The position numbers and the translations under genes were made by a program. Shown piece after piece: positions 36,984-44,799 of a stretch of 59,100 bases of DNA. A model generated the notes under the pieces. The model saw only the letters and a program-made list of their open reading frames with translations. It searched no databases and had not been told where the DNA came from. How positions within the stretch are numbered: the stretch's first letter is position 1; each line of letters opens with the position of its first letter. The DNA is from Acidobacteriota bacterium. Its GTDB lineage: Bacteria > Acidobacteriota > Thermoanaerobaculia > UBA5066. The stretch is taken from NCBI GenBank assembly GCA_003152095.1, contig PLZI01000007.1, positions 18,050 to 77,149 on the forward strand, given 5' to 3'.

Positions 36984-37622
36984 GTGCCCAGGACGCACTT
37001 CGTCAACGGCCATCCGCTCGAGCCGCCCTTTGCCACGGGCATGGAGCGCGCTCTCTTCGGAATGGGCTGCTTCTGGGGGGCCGAGAGGAAGTTCTGGCAG
37101 ACGAGCGGCGTCTTCTCGACAGCCGTCGGGTACGCTGCGGGCCTCACGCCGAACCCAACGTACCGTGAGGTCTGCACGGGGCGCACGGGGCACAGCGAGG
37201 TCGTCCTCGTCGTCTTCGACCCCGCGAAGGTCTCGTACGAACAGCTGCTGAAGGTCTTCTGGGAAAGCCACGACCCGACGCAGGGGATGCGGCAGGGAAA
37301 CGACAGCGGCACGCAGTACCGCTCCGGGATCTACACGTTCGACGAGACGCAGCGCGCGGCGGCCGAAGCCTCGAAGAGCATGTTCCAGAAGGAGCTCGCG
37401 GCGGCGGGCCATGCAGCCATCACGACCGAGATCCTGCCGGCTCCGAAGTTCACTTACGCCGAGGACTACCACCAGCAGTACCTCGCGAAGAACCCGGACG
37501 GCTACTGCGGCCTCGGGGGAACTGGCGTGTCGTGCCCCGTGGGCGTGCCCCGCAGGGGGCGTAGGACCGCGGCCGGCATCGAGACGGCGTCTCACCGAGA
37601 CGCTAAACTCCACGGTTCGTGA
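36984..37622 (+). CDS. msrA: Peptide-methionine (S)-S-oxide reductase
   Basis: MsrA repairs S-methionine sulfoxide in proteins. The 212-residue enzyme has the catalytic Cys29 (GMGCFWGAE), TGHSEVV, the [19 protein letters not shown] block and the C-terminal resolving Cys region ([12 protein letters not shown]). The protein is close to the long E. coli type, including VNGHPLEPP before the core. The start is GTG 36984; no other in-frame start extends it. The extra C-terminal tail ([19 protein letters not shown]) overlaps the next gene's start by GTGA. Confidence 0.92.
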
Positions 37623-40261
37623 GATCCGCCGTTCGGTACACCTCCGTCCGCCAGCGCTTCGAGCCTTTCCTCCTCGCCGTGGAGCGCCCCGGACGCTACC
37701 TCGGTCTGGAGCGAAACGTCACGCGCAAGGATCTCGGCGCGATGTCGGTGACCGTGTGCCTCGCATTCCCGGACGCCTACGAGATCGGGATGAGCCACAC
37801 GGGCACGAAGATCCTCTACGAAATCGTGAACCGGCGGCAGGACTGGTCCTGCGAGCGCACGTACGCTCCGTGGGTCGACTTCGAAGCCGTGCTCCGCCGG
37901 GAGAACGTCCCGCTCTTCTCGGTGGAGTCGTTCGCGCCCGTTTCGGATTTCGACGTCGTCGGTTTCTCCCTCCAGAGCGAGCTCAATTACACGAACGTCC
38001 CGAACATGCTCGACCTTTCAGGCATTCCCGTGCTCGCGGCGGAGCGCGGCGACGCCGACCCGATCGTCATCGGCGGCGGGCCGTGCACCGCGAATCCCGA
38101 ACCGCTCGCGGACTTCTTCGACGTGTTTCTGATCGGCGACGCGGAAGAAGCGCTTCCCGTCTTTCTCGAAAAGGTCGCGGCCACGAAATGGCTTTCACGC
38201 CGCGAGCGCCTCATCGCGCTCGCCACGTGCCCGGGCATCTACACCCCGTCCCTCTACGACGTCGTCTATGACGGGGACCGCGTCGTGTCGACGACGCCGA
38301 ACGCCCCGGGGGTTCCCCAGAAGGTGAGCCGCGTTTGGGTCGAGAAGCTCTCTGCCGACGTCTATCCCGCCAAACCCATGGTCCCTTCGGTCGACATCAT
38401 CCAGGACCGCCTCGGCCTCGAGATCATGCGCGGCTGCACGCAGGGCTGCCGCTTCTGCCAGGCCGGTTACTGGTACCGGCCCGTACGCGAACTGGACCCC
38501 GCCGACATCGCGAGGGCCACGAAAGCGTTCATCGACGAGGCCGGCTGGAGCGAGGTGGGACTGCTCTCGCTGTCCTCCGCCGACTACTCACAGATCGAGC
38601 CGCTCGTCGCGTGCCTCGCGCCGGAGCTCGCGAAGACGCGGGTGTCGATCTCGCTCCCGTCGCTTCGGGCAGAGGCCTTCTCCGTCGCCCTCGCGGACGC
38701 CGTCTCCGAGGTCCGAAAGTCGGGTTTCACGTTCGCGCCGGAAACGGGTTCCGACCGTTTGCGCCGCGTCATCAACAAGACGTTCACGAGTGCCGACATG
38801 GTGAAGGCGGCGGACGTCGCCTTTTCGCGCGGCTGGGACATGATCAAGGTCTATACGATGATCGGCCTCCCGACGGAGACCGAGCCCGATCTCGATGAGC
38901 TCGTCACGCTCGTGAAAGACATCCTCGCGCAGGGCAAGAAGCACGGCGTCCGTCCCACGGTGAATGTGTCGGTGGGGTCGTTCGTCCCGAAGAGCTTCAC
39001 GCCGTTCCAGTGGTTCGCCTTCGACGGCGTCGAGAGCCTGAGCCGCAAGCTGGCCTACCTGAAGGAGAAGTTCCGCACGGTGAAGGGCGCGAAGATGACG
39101 TGGCATGAGCCGAAGGAGGCCGAGATCGAGGCGATGCTCTCGCTCGGCGACCGGCGCATGGGTCGCGCGATTCTCGAGGTCTGGAAGCGCGGCGGCCGCT
39201 TCGACGCGTGGAGCGAACACTTCTCGTGGGCGCGCTGGAACGAGGCGCTCGAGGCCGCGGAGGTCGCGAAGGATCGCCACCTGCGCGAGAAGGACCTCAA
39301 GGAGACGCTCCCCTGGGACGTCGTCGACGCTTTCATCCGCAAGCCCTTTCTCATCGTCGAGTGGAAGAAAGCCGTGAAGGAGATGCGAACCGACGACTGC
39401 AAGTGGGGACGCTGCTACGCATGCGGCGTCCCGGGCGACGGCGAGGACACCGTGCTGGCGAATTCCCTGCCGAAGGATTTCGGATTCTTAGAAGGTAATT
39501 GGGGCACCAGCGGCGGTGTCACGTTGCCTGTCGCACCGGCGCCGACTGCGGGCGCATCAGCCCCATTACCCTTCGAGGAAAAAGCACCGCTGCCGTTTGC
39601 TCCGCCATCCCCGGACGCACGAGACGCAGGCCGAGGGTCCGCTTACACCGAGAAAGCCAAGGGTGCCGCGTACCGCATGAAGGCGACGCCCGACCTGCTG
39701 CCGCTGCGCGAGCGGCGGGCTCCCGGCGGTGCGCTCGGGGTGCCCCTCGCCGAGACGGCGCGGTCGTACCGATTCACATTCGAGAAGCTCGGCGACGCGC
39801 GCTACCTCTCGCATCGCAACACGATGGACGTCCTCGAACGCGCGCTCCGCGCCTCCGGCGCGCCCGTGCGCTACACGGAGGGATACAACCCGCACCTTCG
39901 GATGTCCATGGGGCCGGCGCTGCCGCTCGGCCATGAGTCGAAGCACGAGCTGTTCGACGTGGACGTCCTCGACGCCCTGACGGACGCGCACGTCACGGCC
40001 GTGAACGCGAGGCTTCCCGAAGGCCTCAGGATCACCGCGTGCGCGGAGCTGCCAAAGGGCGCGAAGTCTCTCGGGCGCGCGGCGACGATGGCCGTCTACC
40101 GCTTCACGCTCCCGAACGGGGAGACGCGCACCGAGCGCCTCGCGCTCTCGGGCGCGGAAGCCACCACGCCGAAGAAATTCCTCGAAAAGGAATATGGAGT
40201 ACCCCCCGAGGGCCAGCACGGCATTCGGGTGAGGCGGGAGGAGACGGTCCTCGCGTCGTAA
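37619..40261 (+). CDS. B12-binding-type radical SAM protein (TIGR03960) fused to a DUF2344 domain
   Basis: This 880-residue protein has an N-terminal B12-binding-like Rossmann region (about 40-190; [32 protein letters not shown]). A radical SAM domain follows with CTQGCRFC (about 270-277). A long Pro/Ala linker (about 625-690) leads to a C-terminal DUF2344/TIGR03936 domain ([20 protein letters not shown]). In many bacteria these two parts are adjacent genes or a fusion, often near ribosomal or RNase G genes; the reaction is unknown. It starts with GTG overlapping the msrA stop. The linker codons contain a large imperfect palindrome (39494-39570). Confidence 0.85.
39494..39570. repeat. Imperfect palindrome inside the linker of the radical SAM gene
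   Basis: The outer arms GGTAATTGGGGC (39494-39505) and GCCCCATTACC (39560-39570) pair with one bulged base. An inner pair CGGTG/CACCG (39514-39518 and 39534-39538) is nested within. The AT-containing arms stand out from the surrounding codons. It may be a domesticated palindromic element or simply a structured linker sequence. Confidence 0.4.
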
Positions 40262-40271
40262 ACTCGTGGGG

Positions 40272-40649
40272 ATGGCCTTCACCGTCCGCTGCCACGCGAC
40301 CTTCGAAGCGGCACACCACCTCGTGGATTACGTGGGCGGGCCGGAGCCTGTGCACGGGCACTCGTGGAAGATCGAGGTGGCGCTCGGGACGTCCGCGCTC
40401 GGCGCGTACGACCTCTCCGTGGACTTCGTGCCGACCGAGGCGCTCGTGAGGTCGCTCGCGGAGCGCCTCCACAACCGCGACCTGAATACGGTGCCGCCCT
40501 TCGACCGGAGGAACACGAGCGCCGAGAACGTCGCGCTCTGGGTCGCGGAAGAGATCCGCAAGGCTGGCGTCCTCGCTGGAGGCGTGCGCCTCGAGGAAGT
40601 CACGGTATGGGAAGGCACGCGCAACTCCGTCACATTCCGCCCGGATTGA
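40272..40649 (+). CDS. 6-carboxytetrahydropterin synthase-like protein (QueD homologue) lacking catalytic residues
   Basis: This 125-residue PTPS/QueD-fold protein keeps the zinc-binding histidines: His15 or His16 in FEAAHH, His28 and His30 in VHGHSW. It also keeps the pterin-binding Glu114 (TVWEGTRNS). The catalytic Cys that precedes HGH in QueD (KCGRLHGH) is replaced in GGPEPVHGH. The Asp-His pair (LDHHYLN) reads LHNRDLN at 66-72. It is therefore unlikely to have normal QueD activity, although queE and queC are only 17 kb away. The start could be ATG 40272 or GTG 40266. Confidence 0.75.
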   Translation: MAFTVRCHATFEAAHHLVDYVGGPEPVHGHSWKIEVALGTSALGAYDLSVDFVPTEALVRSLAERLHNRDLNTVPPFDRRNTSAENVALWVAEEIRKAGVLAGGVRLEEVTVWEGTRNSVTFRPD

Positions 40650-40656
40650 GGGGACC

Positions 40657-41448
40657 ATGCATCTCGTCGCCTTCCACGGTTATCCGCTCGACCGCCGAAT
40701 CTGGGGTCCTCTCGCCACGCGCGCCGCGGCGGGCGCGCTCGGCCCTATTGCGTCCGTCTTCGCTCCCGACTTCCGCGGCCGCGGGACTTCGCGTCGTCCC
40801 GCCGCGCCCACCCACGCGATGACGCTTCTCGCCGACGACATGGCCGAAGAGATCTCCCGCGCGCTGCCCGAAGGCGAGCCGTTCCTTCTCGCGGGCCTCT
40901 CGATGGGCGGCTACGTGGCATTCGAGTTCCTGAAACGGCACGGGGCGCGCTACGGCGCCCGCCTGAAAGGCCTCGCGCTTTTCGACACGAAGGCCTCCGC
41001 GGACGACGACGCGGCTCGCGTGAAACGCAGGGAGGCCATCGAGGCCCTGCGCAAGGACGGGATCGAAGCGGCGCTCTCCGCCATGCTGCCAAAGCTCCTC
41101 GCCCGGAGTTCGAAAAACACGCCCGTCGAGGAGACCGCGCGCGCGATGATCCTCGCGACGCCGCCCGGGACCGCGATGGCCGACCTCGCGGGCCTCGCCC
41201 TGCGCGACGAAGGCTTCGACGTGCTGTCCGGCTGGGAGAAGCCGCTCCTCGTCGTCGTGGGCGACGAGGACGCCATCGCGCCGCCGTCCGACGCCGAGGC
41301 GATGACGGCTGTCGCGGGCCGCGCGTCTTGGGTGAGCCTCGTGACGGTCCCGCGGGCCGGGCACCTCGTGCCGCTCGAGAACCCGGACGAGGCCGCGGAC
41401 GCCGTCGTGGCGTTCGCGGAACGCGCTATTTCCCCGACGCGGCGCTGA
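40657..41448 (+). CDS. Alpha/beta-fold hydrolase
   Basis: This 263-residue cytoplasmic hydrolase has an HGYPLD oxyanion region, the Ser nucleophile in AGLSMGGYVAFEF, an acid in VVGDEDAIAPP, and the His in PRAGHLVPLENPD. It resembles small esterases or hydrolases of the 3-oxoadipate enol-lactonase type (MhpC/PcaD-like); the substrate is not predictable. It starts 7 bases after the QueD-like gene. Its last 23 bases overlap the 3' end of the convergent radical SAM gene. Confidence 0.85.
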   Translation: MHLVAFHGYPLDRRIWGPLATRAAAGALGPIASVFAPDFRGRGTSRRPAAPTHAMTLLADDMAEEISRALPEGEPFLLAGLSMGGYVAFEFLKRHGARYGARLKGLALFDTKASADDDAARVKRREAIEALRKDGIEAALSAMLPKLLARSSKNTPVEETARAMILATPPGTAMADLAGLALRDEGFDVLSGWEKPLLVVVGDEDAIAPPSDAEAMTAVAGRASWVSLVTVPRAGHLVPLENPDEAADAVVAFAERAISPTRR

Positions 41449-43333
41449 ACGACGGCAGGACCGTGAGCGCCGGCGTCGCGGAGCGCGCGGCGGCCGGAAG
41501 CTCGACGGGCTGCGGAGAGGGCTCGAACACGGGCAGAGTGGACGGCCGCGGCGCGGGCGTAAATGCGGGAAGCGGAACCCGTTTTCCGTGGGCGTACACC
41601 GGGTGGCGCCCCTTGTCCTTGTACCACTCGGAGAGCGTGGCGCTCTGGTACATCTCCTCGACGATCTTCCGCCAACCGGCGCCCGTGTTGTAGGCGCAGA
41701 AGGAGATCTCGCCGAGCTGCGTGCCGTACGGAATGATGCACATTTCCGTGCGCCGGAAATCGTAGTTGAAGAGGTCCTGGAACCACATGCCGGCCACGAG
41801 GAGGACGCGCCAGGGATAACGTCCCTGCTTCGCGATGCCCATGCCCTTGCCGGTGTGTCCGTCCATGACCTTGAGCGTCTCGAAGAGACCGAGGTTCTTC
41901 GGCACGCCGCTCGGCCGAATGTTGCGCGCGAGCGCCATCGCGGTCTGGACGATCGTCAGAAAGCGGCCGCGCGCTGCGTCGGTGACGACCGTGAGATCGC
42001 GCAGGAGGCGGTCGGCGTCGAGGATCTGCGTGAGGGGCACGGCCTGTCCGGTCTCGGGGCGCACGAGCATCATCGTGGCGATGCCGCAGTTCGGGTGGCA
42101 GCCGCACTTCAGCGAGCCCCATTGCGCTTCGAGGCCCCCGAGCAGGTCCTTGAGGTCCGAGAACGGTCCCGAGGCCGAAAGCGGGAACCAGTCGCGCATC
42201 GGCTCGCCGATGCCCGCCTGGTCTTTGACGTCGTGCGCGAGATGCGAGAGCGTATACCGCTGCTTTTTCCGCGTCTCGTCGTCGATTTCCTCGTCTCTCC
42301 CCGTGAAGGAGACGGGTTGAAACGAAACCGCGTTGATCTTCTCGACGTTCTTGACGGCGAAGCGCAGGATGGCGCCGACCTGATCGCTGTTCACACCGTT
42401 CACGATCGTCGTCACGAGCGTGACGTCGATCCCCGCGGCGTGGAGGTTGTCGAGCGCGCGCAGCTTGACGTCGTACAGGTTGCCGACGCCCCGGTGCATG
42501 TTGTGCTCGTTGCCGACCCCGTCGAACTGCAGGTACGCGAGCCGGAGCCCCGCCTCGTATGCGGCTTTCGCGAACTCGGGCTCCTGAGCGAAACGGATTC
42601 CGTTCGTCGCGCACTGGACGGAGAAGTAGCCGATCTCCTTCGCGTAGCGCGTCGCCTCGAGGAAGAAGGGTGAGATCGTGGGCTCGCCACCCGAGAACTG
42701 CACGGAGAGCTGGCGCCGCGGCTTGATCGAGACCGCGTTGTCGAGGATCTCCTTGACGTCGTCCCACCCGAGCTCGTGGACGTATCCGACCTGGTTCGCG
42801 TCCATGAAGCACGGGTTGCACATCATGTTGCAGCGGTTCGTGAGGTCGACCGTGAGAACGGCGCCGCGGCCATAGCGCATCGAAGCCGAGCCGTGGTCAT
42901 GGAGCGCATCCTTGGCGATCTTCACGTCGCGCCCGAAGAAGTTCTGTTCAAGCCGGCCGAAGAACAGCGCGTCGTTCGACATCAGGTCCTCGAACGTGCC
43001 GTGTTTCGGGCAGGTCTTGATCATCCAGATCTCGTTGCCGCGCAGGACGATGTCGGCGGGGATCTCTCCCGGGCGCCCGTCCACGAGCTCGCGCAGCTCA
43101 CGCGTGCCGCCGACGATGGCGTCGCGGACTTCCCGGGTGCACGTCGGACAGAGCGAGTCCGTGCGGCGTGGATAGCCGAGCGGCGGCTTCGTGCGCTCGT
43201 GACTCTTCGGGAGCGGCTCGGGCGACCATGCCGGGTGGAACGCGCGCGCGGGAATGCGGCGGTTCACGGCCTGAAAAGCGTTCCAGGCGACGTTCGCCGT
43301 CGTCCGCACCGCCTCGTAGAACAGCTCGCGCAT
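41426..43333 (-). CDS. Radical SAM enzyme resembling tetraether/membrane-spanning lipid synthase (Tes/Mss-like)
   Basis: This 635-residue protein has an N-terminal metal-ribbon-like region with C62xxC65 (LCPTCTRE) and C108PKHG. The radical SAM motif is C168NMMC172NPC175, with FSGGEPT following. Later cysteine sites are LKCGCHPNCG and ISFCAYNTG, which would hold auxiliary clusters. The order of a Cys-ribbon, CX3CX2C and extra cysteines matches the archaeal Tes family (MJ0619), whose bacterial relatives are proposed to join fatty-acyl tails into membrane-spanning lipids such as iso-diabolic acid. The C-terminus is a Pro-rich tail. The ATG 43333 follows GGAGGAG. Other functions are possible. Confidence 0.65.
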   Translation of the reverse strand: MRELFYEAVRTTANVAWNAFQAVNRRIPARAFHPAWSPEPLPKSHERTKPPLGYPRRTDSLCPTCTREVRDAIVGGTRELRELVDGRPGEIPADIVLRGNEIWMIKTCPKHGTFEDLMSNDALFFGRLEQNFFGRDVKIAKDALHDHGSASMRYGRGAVLTVDLTNRCNMMCNPCFMDANQVGYVHELGWDDVKEILDNAVSIKPRRQLSVQFSGGEPTISPFFLEATRYAKEIGYFSVQCATNGIRFAQEPEFAKAAYEAGLRLAYLQFDGVGNEHNMHRGVGNLYDVKLRALDNLHAAGIDVTLVTTIVNGVNSDQVGAILRFAVKNVEKINAVSFQPVSFTGRDEEIDDETRKKQRYTLSHLAHDVKDQAGIGEPMRDWFPLSASGPFSDLKDLLGGLEAQWGSLKCGCHPNCGIATMMLVRPETGQAVPLTQILDADRLLRDLTVVTDAARGRFLTIVQTAMALARNIRPSGVPKNLGLFETLKVMDGHTGKGMGIAKQGRYPWRVLLVAGMWFQDLFNYDFRRTEMCIIPYGTQLGEISFCAYNTGAGWRKIVEEMYQSATLSEWYKDKGRHPVYAHGKRVPLPAFTPAPRPSTLPVFEPSPQPVELPAAARSATPALTVLPSFSAASGK

Positions 43334-43427
43334 CGGTCTCCTCCGGATAACGTCGTCTTTCCGCAGCCCCGGGGGACGGCTCACGCGACGACGCCTGTAT
43401 GTAAGGCTTGACTCTACCACGCGTCCG

Positions 43428-44039
43428 TCAAGACACCCGTCCCTTGGCGTCGAGAATGAGTCCCGTTCCAGGCAATTCAGGGGGCCCGTAAAGGCGTTCG
43501 ACCCGCCGGAGCGCGGCCCGGCCGACGGCGCGCACGGCCCCGTAGTTCAGCGCGGCTCCCGCGGCCGCGCCGAGCAGGGGCACGAGATGGGAGACCTCGC
43601 GGCCCACGAAGCGCGCCAGGAGGCGCGCCGCGATCTCTTCGGCGGCGCGGGTCGTGAGGCGGCGCCCCACGCTGATGCCCGCGCCGGCGGCCAAGCCCGC
43701 GAGCACCTCGAGCGCGCGCTCCTCCGGCTCCATCGGGGCGCCGTACAGGATATGGAGGGACACGATGAGCCGGCTCTGAAGGACGAGGAGCGCGGTCAGC
43801 TCGGGCGCTGCCGTCGCGAGCGCCGCCCAGCCGGGAGGCAGCCCCGCAACGCCCCCGAGCACGGCGGCGCGGCGGGCCGCCCTCCTGACGAGGCGCTCGC
43901 CCTTTTCGCGCGTCGTGGCGTACGCGTATTTCGCCGCGAATTCACGGACGTCGTTCCGGAGCCGGTCCACGTCGAGATCCGTCGTCGCTTTTTCGAGGAG
44001 CTTCAGAAAGGTTTCGGCCAGCATCCTGAGGTTTATCAT
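43428..44039 (-). CDS. EcsC-family-like protein
   Basis: This 203-residue protein has a helical N-terminus and a hydrophobic core (GGVAGLPPGWAALATAAPEL, then LLVLQSRLIVSLHILYG) typical of EcsC/DUF697-like proteins. A second glycine-rich hydrophobic segment follows (HLVPLLGAAAGAALNYGAVR). It is probably a peripheral or weakly embedded membrane protein of unknown function. The start ATG 44039 is preferred; 44024 is possible. It precedes the Tes-like gene on the same strand (94-base gap) and is divergent from the cyclophilin. Confidence 0.6.
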   Translation of the reverse strand: MINLRMLAETFLKLLEKATTDLDVDRLRNDVREFAAKYAYATTREKGERLVRRAARRAAVLGGVAGLPPGWAALATAAPELTALLVLQSRLIVSLHILYGAPMEPEERALEVLAGLAAGAGISVGRRLTTRAAEEIAARLLARFVGREVSHLVPLLGAAAGAALNYGAVRAVGRAALRRVERLYGPPELPGTGLILDAKGRVS

Positions 44040-44097
44040 CGGCGGGGTGGGCTCCGCTGACAAGGACCGTCCGGGCACTTTAAGGAGGACACACGGA

Positions 44098-44799
44098 ATG
44101 TCAATCCGAACGGCCGCTTTCCAGGCGGTCCGCGCGGCCCTCGCCGCTCTTCTCGTCCTTTCCTCGGCGGGAGGCCTCGCGGCGCCCCTGAAGGCGAAAG
44201 CGAAGAAGGCCGTGCCCAAGACGGCGCCGCGCGACTACGCGCACGCGGTGGCGGTTCTCCACACCGAGCGCGGCGACGTCACGATTCGTTTCTTCGCCGA
44301 CCGAGCCCCGAATCATGTGAAGAATTTCGTCGACCTCGCGGCGTCCGGCTTCTACGACGGCACGCTCTTCCACCGCGTGATTCCCGGCTTCGTCTTGCAG
44401 GGAGGCGATCCGCTGACGAAGGATCCGAAGAACGCGTTCGTCTGGGGAAACGCAGGGCGCACCGACGCGAAGGGCCAGCCCGTCACGTTGAAGCCCGAGT
44501 TCAATGACACGCCGCACAAGCGCGGCGTCGTGTCGATGGCGCGCTCGTCGGCGCCCGATTCGGCCTCTTCCCAGTTCTTCGTCGTCTTGAAGGACTACCC
44601 CTCCCTCGACCACCAATACACCGCGTTCGGCGAAGTCGTCAAAGGAATGGACATCGTGGACCGCATCGTGGCGGAGTCGAATCCGGATCCGGCGAACTTC
44701 AATCTCGGCAAGCCCCGCACCTACCAGAAGCTGTTGAAGGTCGACATTCTCGAGGAGGGCGCTGCTCCGGCCACGCCCGCACCCGCAACGAAAGGGTGA
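44098..44799 (+). CDS. Exported cyclophilin-type peptidyl-prolyl isomerase
   Basis: This 233-residue protein has a signal peptide (AALAALLVLSSAGGLAAP) followed by a bacterial cyclophilin domain: VTIRFFADRAPNHVKNFVDL, LFHRVIPGFVLQGGDP (with the catalytic Arg), SSQFFVVLKD and YTAFGEVVKGMDIVD. It would catalyse proline isomerisation of exported proteins in the periplasm. A strong TAAGGAGGA lies 8 bases before ATG 44098. The TGA overlaps the GTG start of the kinase gene that follows. Confidence 0.92.
   Translation: MSIRTAAFQAVRAALAALLVLSSAGGLAAPLKAKAKKAVPKTAPRDYAHAVAVLHTERGDVTIRFFADRAPNHVKNFVDLAASGFYDGTLFHRVIPGFVLQGGDPLTKDPKNAFVWGNAGRTDAKGQPVTLKPEFNDTPHKRGVVSMARSSAPDSASSQFFVVLKDYPSLDHQYTAFGEVVKGMDIVDRIVAESNPDPANFNLGKPRTYQKLLKVDILEEGAAPATPAPATKG

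Follow-up and report, generated by a model that had tools for sequence, protein, structure and literature searches.

In many Acidobacteria, iso-diabolic acid makes up a major part of the membrane; it is also presumed to be the unit from which brGDGTs are built, lipids that serve to reconstruct past temperature and pH. To our knowledge, no enzyme of Acidobacteria has so far been established as the source of this acid. A radical SAM gene in the window analysed here, a stretch of 59,100 nucleotides from a not yet cultured bacterium related to soil Acidobacteria, raises the question of whether it encodes such an enzyme. In the initial annotation it was read as a Tes/Mss-like protein and possible membrane-spanning-lipid synthase, the organism perhaps making membrane-spanning lipids or brGDGT precursors.

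The open reading frame extends on the minus strand from the ATG at 43333 to the stop at 41426 and encodes 635 aa (Table 1); its coordinates had been given correctly, with the strand left unstated. The gene is single-copy in the window genome, was found in each of the 18 further genomes of the order that were examined, and has a dN/dS of approximately 0.09 against genus-mates (rough NG86 estimate). Among relatives with names, those at 91% identity come from Acidobacteria, and one carries the label Thermoanaerobaculia. The assembly of the window genome has no 16S gene that could be used for typing. Long open frames are also found on the antisense (plus) strand within the gene, e.g., 41588-42673; they recur in relatives and resemble GC-rich shadow frames.

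Family, fold and metal sites

Pfam domains Radical_SAM (E = 5.7e-21) and Zn_ribbon_HMPTM (3.9e-15) are recognised in the protein. Among NCBIfam models the top match is Tes, the tetraether synthase (NF045702; 8e-97, 324.8 bits); in the PDB, the sequence strongly matches just 7TOL/7TOM (2e-67), structures of MJ0619, the tetraether synthase of M. jannaschii. Given these E values, the motifs listed in the initial annotation, every one of which was found (C62-x2-C65, C108PKHG, C168NMMC172NPC175, K409CGCHPNC416, and F545CAYN549), are far beyond chance. The AlphaFold2 model, for which 48 sequences of the window protein and its relatives were the input (pLDDT 81, pTM 0.85), retrieved 7TOM in Foldseek at a target-normalised TM of 0.85 (E 2e-37), the next structure being MoaA (5e-11). 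Assignment to the Tes superfamily is thus upheld by sequence, profile, and fold, as well as by the phylogeny below.

In MJ0619, the rubredoxin iron is held by C9, C12, C33, and H36, and the surface cluster [Fe4S4]N by C73, C77, C80, and a His; the enzyme further contains the radical SAM cluster as well as [Fe4S4]C, a cluster that has labile Met439 and binds the first activated carbon via a C-S bond (Lloyd et al., PMC9433317). Comparison of the cluster-ligating cysteines with MJ0619, the check proposed at the outset, showed that the rubredoxin, radical SAM, and [Fe4S4]C ligands are kept and the [Fe4S4]N ligands are missing. The second CxxxCxxC of Tes (CPYDCGLC), which provides the [Fe4S4]N ligands, is gone, a feature that the initial annotation missed. 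The residues aligned in its place, A143, H147, and A150, belong to a conserved loop of the LHxHG[ST] type. SAM-loop residues Q339, S342, and R346 are kept. Two more cysteines, C410 and C412, are also invariant; they were considered as a simple swap for the lost [Fe4S4]N and rejected, some canonical Tes-like proteins carrying both sets.

The helical moment of the N-terminal segment is above that of shuffles in 35 of 44 branch members, the window protein (P0001) being borderline (p = 0.06). On the basis of the model, this helix is proposed to contact the membrane surface.

Table 1. Features of the radical SAM gene and its surroundings in window coordinates.
Feature	Position	Strand	Basis
Radical SAM gene, [Fe4S4]N-less branch of Tes superfamily	41426..43333	-	ORF, profiles, PDB match, tree, ligand alignment
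Shine-Dalgarno-like GGAGG, 6 bases 5' of ATG	43340..43344	-	Sequence
N-terminal extension, residues 2-26, predicted amphipathic helix	43256..43330	-	Helix in AF2 model
Rubredoxin-type metal site C62, C65, C108, H111 (= MJ0619 C9, C12, C33, H36)	43001..43150	-	Pfam PF23545; CCCH in 151/151 branch rows; ligand roles PMC9433317
Place of lost [Fe4S4]N, residues 142-154 (DALHDHGSASMRY)	42872..42910	-	MJ0619 C73, C77, C80 -> A143, H147, A150
Radical SAM cluster motif C168-x3-C172-x2-C175 (CNMMCNPC)	42809..42832	-	Pfam, alignment to MJ0619, branch rows
K409CGCHPNC416; C416 = [Fe4S4]C ligand position	42086..42109	-	Alignment to MJ0619
C-terminal [Fe4S4]C site: M516 (labile Met439 of MJ0619), C532, Y536 (Tyr459), C546 (FCAYN)	41687..41788	-	Alignment; branch rows; PMC9433317
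Pro-rich C-terminal tail, residues 595-635, predicted disordered	41429..41551	-	pLDDT below 50
EcsC-family neighbour (marginal match), upstream, 94 bp away	43428..44219	-	Not a conserved partner outside the order

The branch lacking the [Fe4S4]N ligands

The window protein cannot simply be called a Tes: its score lies below the curated NF045702 cut-off (450 bits), and the [Fe4S4]N ligands are gone throughout its branch. Among the matches listed, no window-branch protein exceeds that cut-off, branch scores being approximately 310-350 bits, and automatic annotation therefore calls the branch just radical SAM protein. On a profile of the order's own proteins, full-length branch members score 800-1305 bits, canonical Tes-like proteins about 314-466 bits, and the rest lower. 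The branch spans Acidobacteriota, Myxococcota, and Latescibacterota.

Ligands were counted over all sequences collected, the rows including some duplicate genomes. None of the 151 branch rows has the three [Fe4S4]N cysteines, and all 151 keep the rubredoxin, radical SAM, and C-terminal ligands, including the labile Met. The N-terminal cysteines are kept in every full-length canonical bacterial Tes-like row (57/57). TrsS-like rows have the reverse pattern, with N-terminal cysteines in most and the full C-terminal set in none.

In a 59-taxon maximum-likelihood tree, the branch (UFBoot 100) sits on a stem 0.99 substitutions per site long and falls within the bacterial Tes-like proteins, L003 being its weakly supported sister (70). 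The grouping with canonical bacterial Tes-like proteins has UFBoot 100 and that with MJ0619 has 82. The window protein thus clusters with MJ0619 and the Tes homologues of bacteria, separately from TrsS-like proteins, and not in a different radical SAM subfamily, the placement named at the outset as one that would speak against the assignment. Plasmid-borne haloarchaeal and mycobacterial matches were distant and of no help in placing the branch. Two window-branch paralogues each occur in G140, G165, G244, G237, and G230, with a deep split in the tree (e.g., L190, L194, L195).

Judging from this tree, the simplest history would be a single loss of [Fe4S4]N on the branch stem. Loss of a surface cluster might, speculatively, be an adaptation to oxygen. 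The long stem (about 1 substitution per site) and the lost cluster would together allow a changed reaction.

Lipid phenotypes and linkage to canonical tes

The window branch is present in genomes that we take to be those of Acidobacterium capsulatum (G422), Terriglobus saanensis (G391), Koribacter versatilis (G397), and Luteitalea pratensis (G175), and also in G421 (taken as Granulicella mallensis, PMC3910553). For several strains it can be set beside published lipids. Iso-diabolic acid makes up 25.0% of the fatty acids in Edaphobacter paludis JP48 (genome in PMC11354219); the sole Tes-superfamily gene of the genome taken as this strain (G255) belongs to the window branch, the next radical SAM protein scoring 56 bits. 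Pyrinomonas methylaliphatogenes K22 also makes iso-diabolic acid (PMC4644332), and G140, taken as this strain, has two window-branch copies and otherwise nothing above 72 bits. Occallatibacter bavaricus JP12 contains 49.2% iso-diabolic acid (PMC12935467), and Chloracidobacterium validum has it among its main fatty acids (PMC12816986); the genomes taken as theirs (G461 and G149, respectively) each carry a window-branch gene together with TrsS-like gene(s). Zeng et al. list one Tes homologue for E. aggregans with 32% (4e-61) as well as two others, whose values are 40-42% and 1e-139 to 1e-149. The former fits window-branch values (30-32%, 1e-57 to 1e-68), and the 40-42% homologues fit the canonical type.

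The genome search found no window-branch gene in G036, taken as Thermoanaerobaculum aquaticum of the window's class (PMC4056298). Iso-diabolic acid has been found in Acidobacteria subdivisions 1, 3, 4, and 6, and subdivision 23 of T. aquaticum is outside this list (PMC13274423). Co-occurrence alone is a weak argument, because the gene is common in Acidobacteriota and the phenotype links come from a few strains; an unrelated enzyme may perform the tail coupling.

Gene order also links the branch to the membrane-spanning-lipid pathway, and this evidence does not depend on phenotype. Of the 28 genomes that contain a canonical tes as well as a window-branch gene, 10 have the two genes 0.6-11.3 kb apart; these 10 represent three families and seven genera, and in 9 of them both genes are on the same strand. 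By our estimate for genomes of 3-7 Mb, about 0.1 linked pairs would be expected by chance, relatedness lowering the effective number of genomes. Recent tandem duplication is not the cause of the pairing, since branch and canonical proteins are just ~35% identical. The two genes directly adjoin in G299, G498, and G569 (0.6-0.8 kb), and in G397 (L309, 2523-4697 and 15567-17252) they lie on one strand 11 kb apart.

Across the linked genomes no common third partner was found between the paired genes, the intervening genes being varied. In G501, where the canonical tes lies 1 kb from a divergent window-branch gene, it is adjoined by a 547-aa radical SAM/SPASM protein (L322, 1012-2655 minus), possibly another tail-modifying enzyme. 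A gene neighbourhood shared across named relatives was sought, but outside the order just the gene and its shadow ORFs recur. The flanks in the window revealed no lipid theme (cyclophilin, alpha/beta hydrolase, QueD-like PTPS, rSAM-DUF2344, MsrA). The 6-pyruvoyl-tetrahydropterin-synthase-like gene at 40266-40649 (plus) is located directly 3' of a radical SAM_N2/B12/DUF2344 fusion gene (37619-40261 plus).

Candidate reaction and comparison with known systems

From these lines of evidence we infer that the window protein is probably a tail-to-tail coupling enzyme of the iso-diabolic-acid type that works without [Fe4S4]N. It would act in association with the membrane on phospholipids with saturated (iso-)branched acyl tails, joining two such tails at their terminal carbons and giving ester-bound membrane-spanning lipids of the iso-diabolic-acid type. 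If the steps carry over from MJ0619, SAM on the C168/C172/C175 cluster would yield a 5'-deoxyadenosyl radical that abstracts H from one tail end, and a C-S bond would keep the activated carbon on the cluster of C416/C532/C546 and labile M516. The other tail would be radicalised by a second SAM, and its attack would form the C-C bond. Specific to the branch would be that coupling proceeds without the surface [Fe4S4]N cluster. Of this scheme, the ligands, the fold, the branch membership, and the distribution are shown by the present analysis.

The role in membrane-spanning lipids proposed in the initial annotation has good support by association: some strains rich in iso-diabolic acid have no other member of the superfamily, and there is linkage to canonical tes. 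Its brGDGT-precursor part is weaker. A search for the PlsA/Ger ester reductase (PF09989) found none in the window genome and none in 12 of 15 other genomes of the order searched, the control search finding PlsA/Ger in Thermotoga. In light of the known pathway (PMC13274423), ester-bound iso-diabolic acid would therefore be a likelier product here than ether-bound brGDGTs.

In an unlikely alternative, the branch would carry out another radical step on lipid tails in the same pathway, e.g., methylation, desaturation, or cross-bridging of iso-diabolic lipids, and canonical Tes or another enzyme would form the C-C bond. Adjacency to canonical tes in 10/28 genomes could mean two successive steps, the long stem and changed cofactor set would fit a different reaction, and K. 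versatilis (G397), which has both types, is a reported maker of C6-methylated iso-diabolic tetraesters (PMC13274423). However, iso-diabolic acid is abundant in both E. paludis and P. methylaliphatogenes, although neither has a canonical tes or a TrsS-like gene; the site for the C-S intermediate is complete, and Pfam finds no B12 domain in the window protein.

It is less probable still that the protein couples tails on another scale or substrate, macrocyclising the two tails of one lipid or joining straight or other tails in place of iso-C15. One MJ0619 active site also yields macrocyclic archaeol (PMC9433317), and the branch occurs in Polyangia including Sorangium and Minicystis (L054-L056, L066), for which a literature search, covering Sorangium, gave no report of diabolic acids; the gene-bearing strains examined, however, contain iso-diabolic acid of the intermolecular type. 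It is very improbable that the protein has no part in lipid coupling and is instead of the TrsS type or the pterin methyltransferase (HMPTM) of older annotation: the Pfam N-terminal domain is named for HMPTM and TrsS (NF045646) is the second-best NCBIfam match, but this match of 210 bits spans the core alone, far below the curated 490-bit cut-off, TrsS-like proteins are devoid of the [Fe4S4]C ligand set that the window branch keeps, and the MJ0619 authors could not confirm a pterin role (PMC9433317).

With tail coupling as the preferred reading, the branch may be the long-sought lipid-coupling enzyme of iso-diabolic-acid-rich bacteria. Chances appear about even for a broader proposal, in which the [Fe4S4]N-less branch would be the main iso-diabolic acid synthase of Acidobacteriota and the N-terminal cluster would be dispensable for sp3-sp3 tail coupling and shed in bacteria often living with oxygen; alongside a canonical Tes, the pathway would be split between the two enzymes, e.g., into ester-lipid and diether coupling. 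The branch provides one definite candidate gene, which is the sole superfamily candidate in a cultured strain. We know of no role assigned to the N-terminal cluster of the archaeal enzyme, and a large natural group without [Fe4S4]N poses a sharp question for enzymologists.

Archaeal Tes/GDGT-MAS (MJ0619; 7TOL, 7TOM; NF045702) shares with the window protein the full-length fold, the rubredoxin site, the radical SAM cluster, and the [Fe4S4]C ligands, including the labile Met, together with the conserved Tyr. The two are 31% identical, and the window protein differs in having no [Fe4S4]N ligands, an N-terminal extension of ~53 residues with the predicted amphipathic helix, and a Pro-rich C-terminal tail, whereas MJ0619 has just 8 residues ahead of the first rubredoxin Cys. 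Mss is reportedly the bacterial membrane-spanning lipid synthase of Thermotoga and Clostridia, described by Sahonero-Canavesi in 2022. Compared by published description, its proposed reaction is on the same kind of acyl tails, and published Mss models have Tes-like catalytic architecture (PMC13274423). TrsS has the rubredoxin site and the radical SAM core in common with the branch, but keeps the [Fe4S4]N cysteines and is without the [Fe4S4]C ligand set, thus forming its mirror image. Canonical bacterial Tes homologues, e.g., that of K. versatilis and the one also named for S. usitatus (Zeng 2022; Chen 2022), belong to the same superfamily and have the same C-terminal cluster as the branch; they are nearest to it in the tree and often encoded by neighbouring genes, but retain the complete [Fe4S4]N ligand set and for the most part score above the Tes cut-off.
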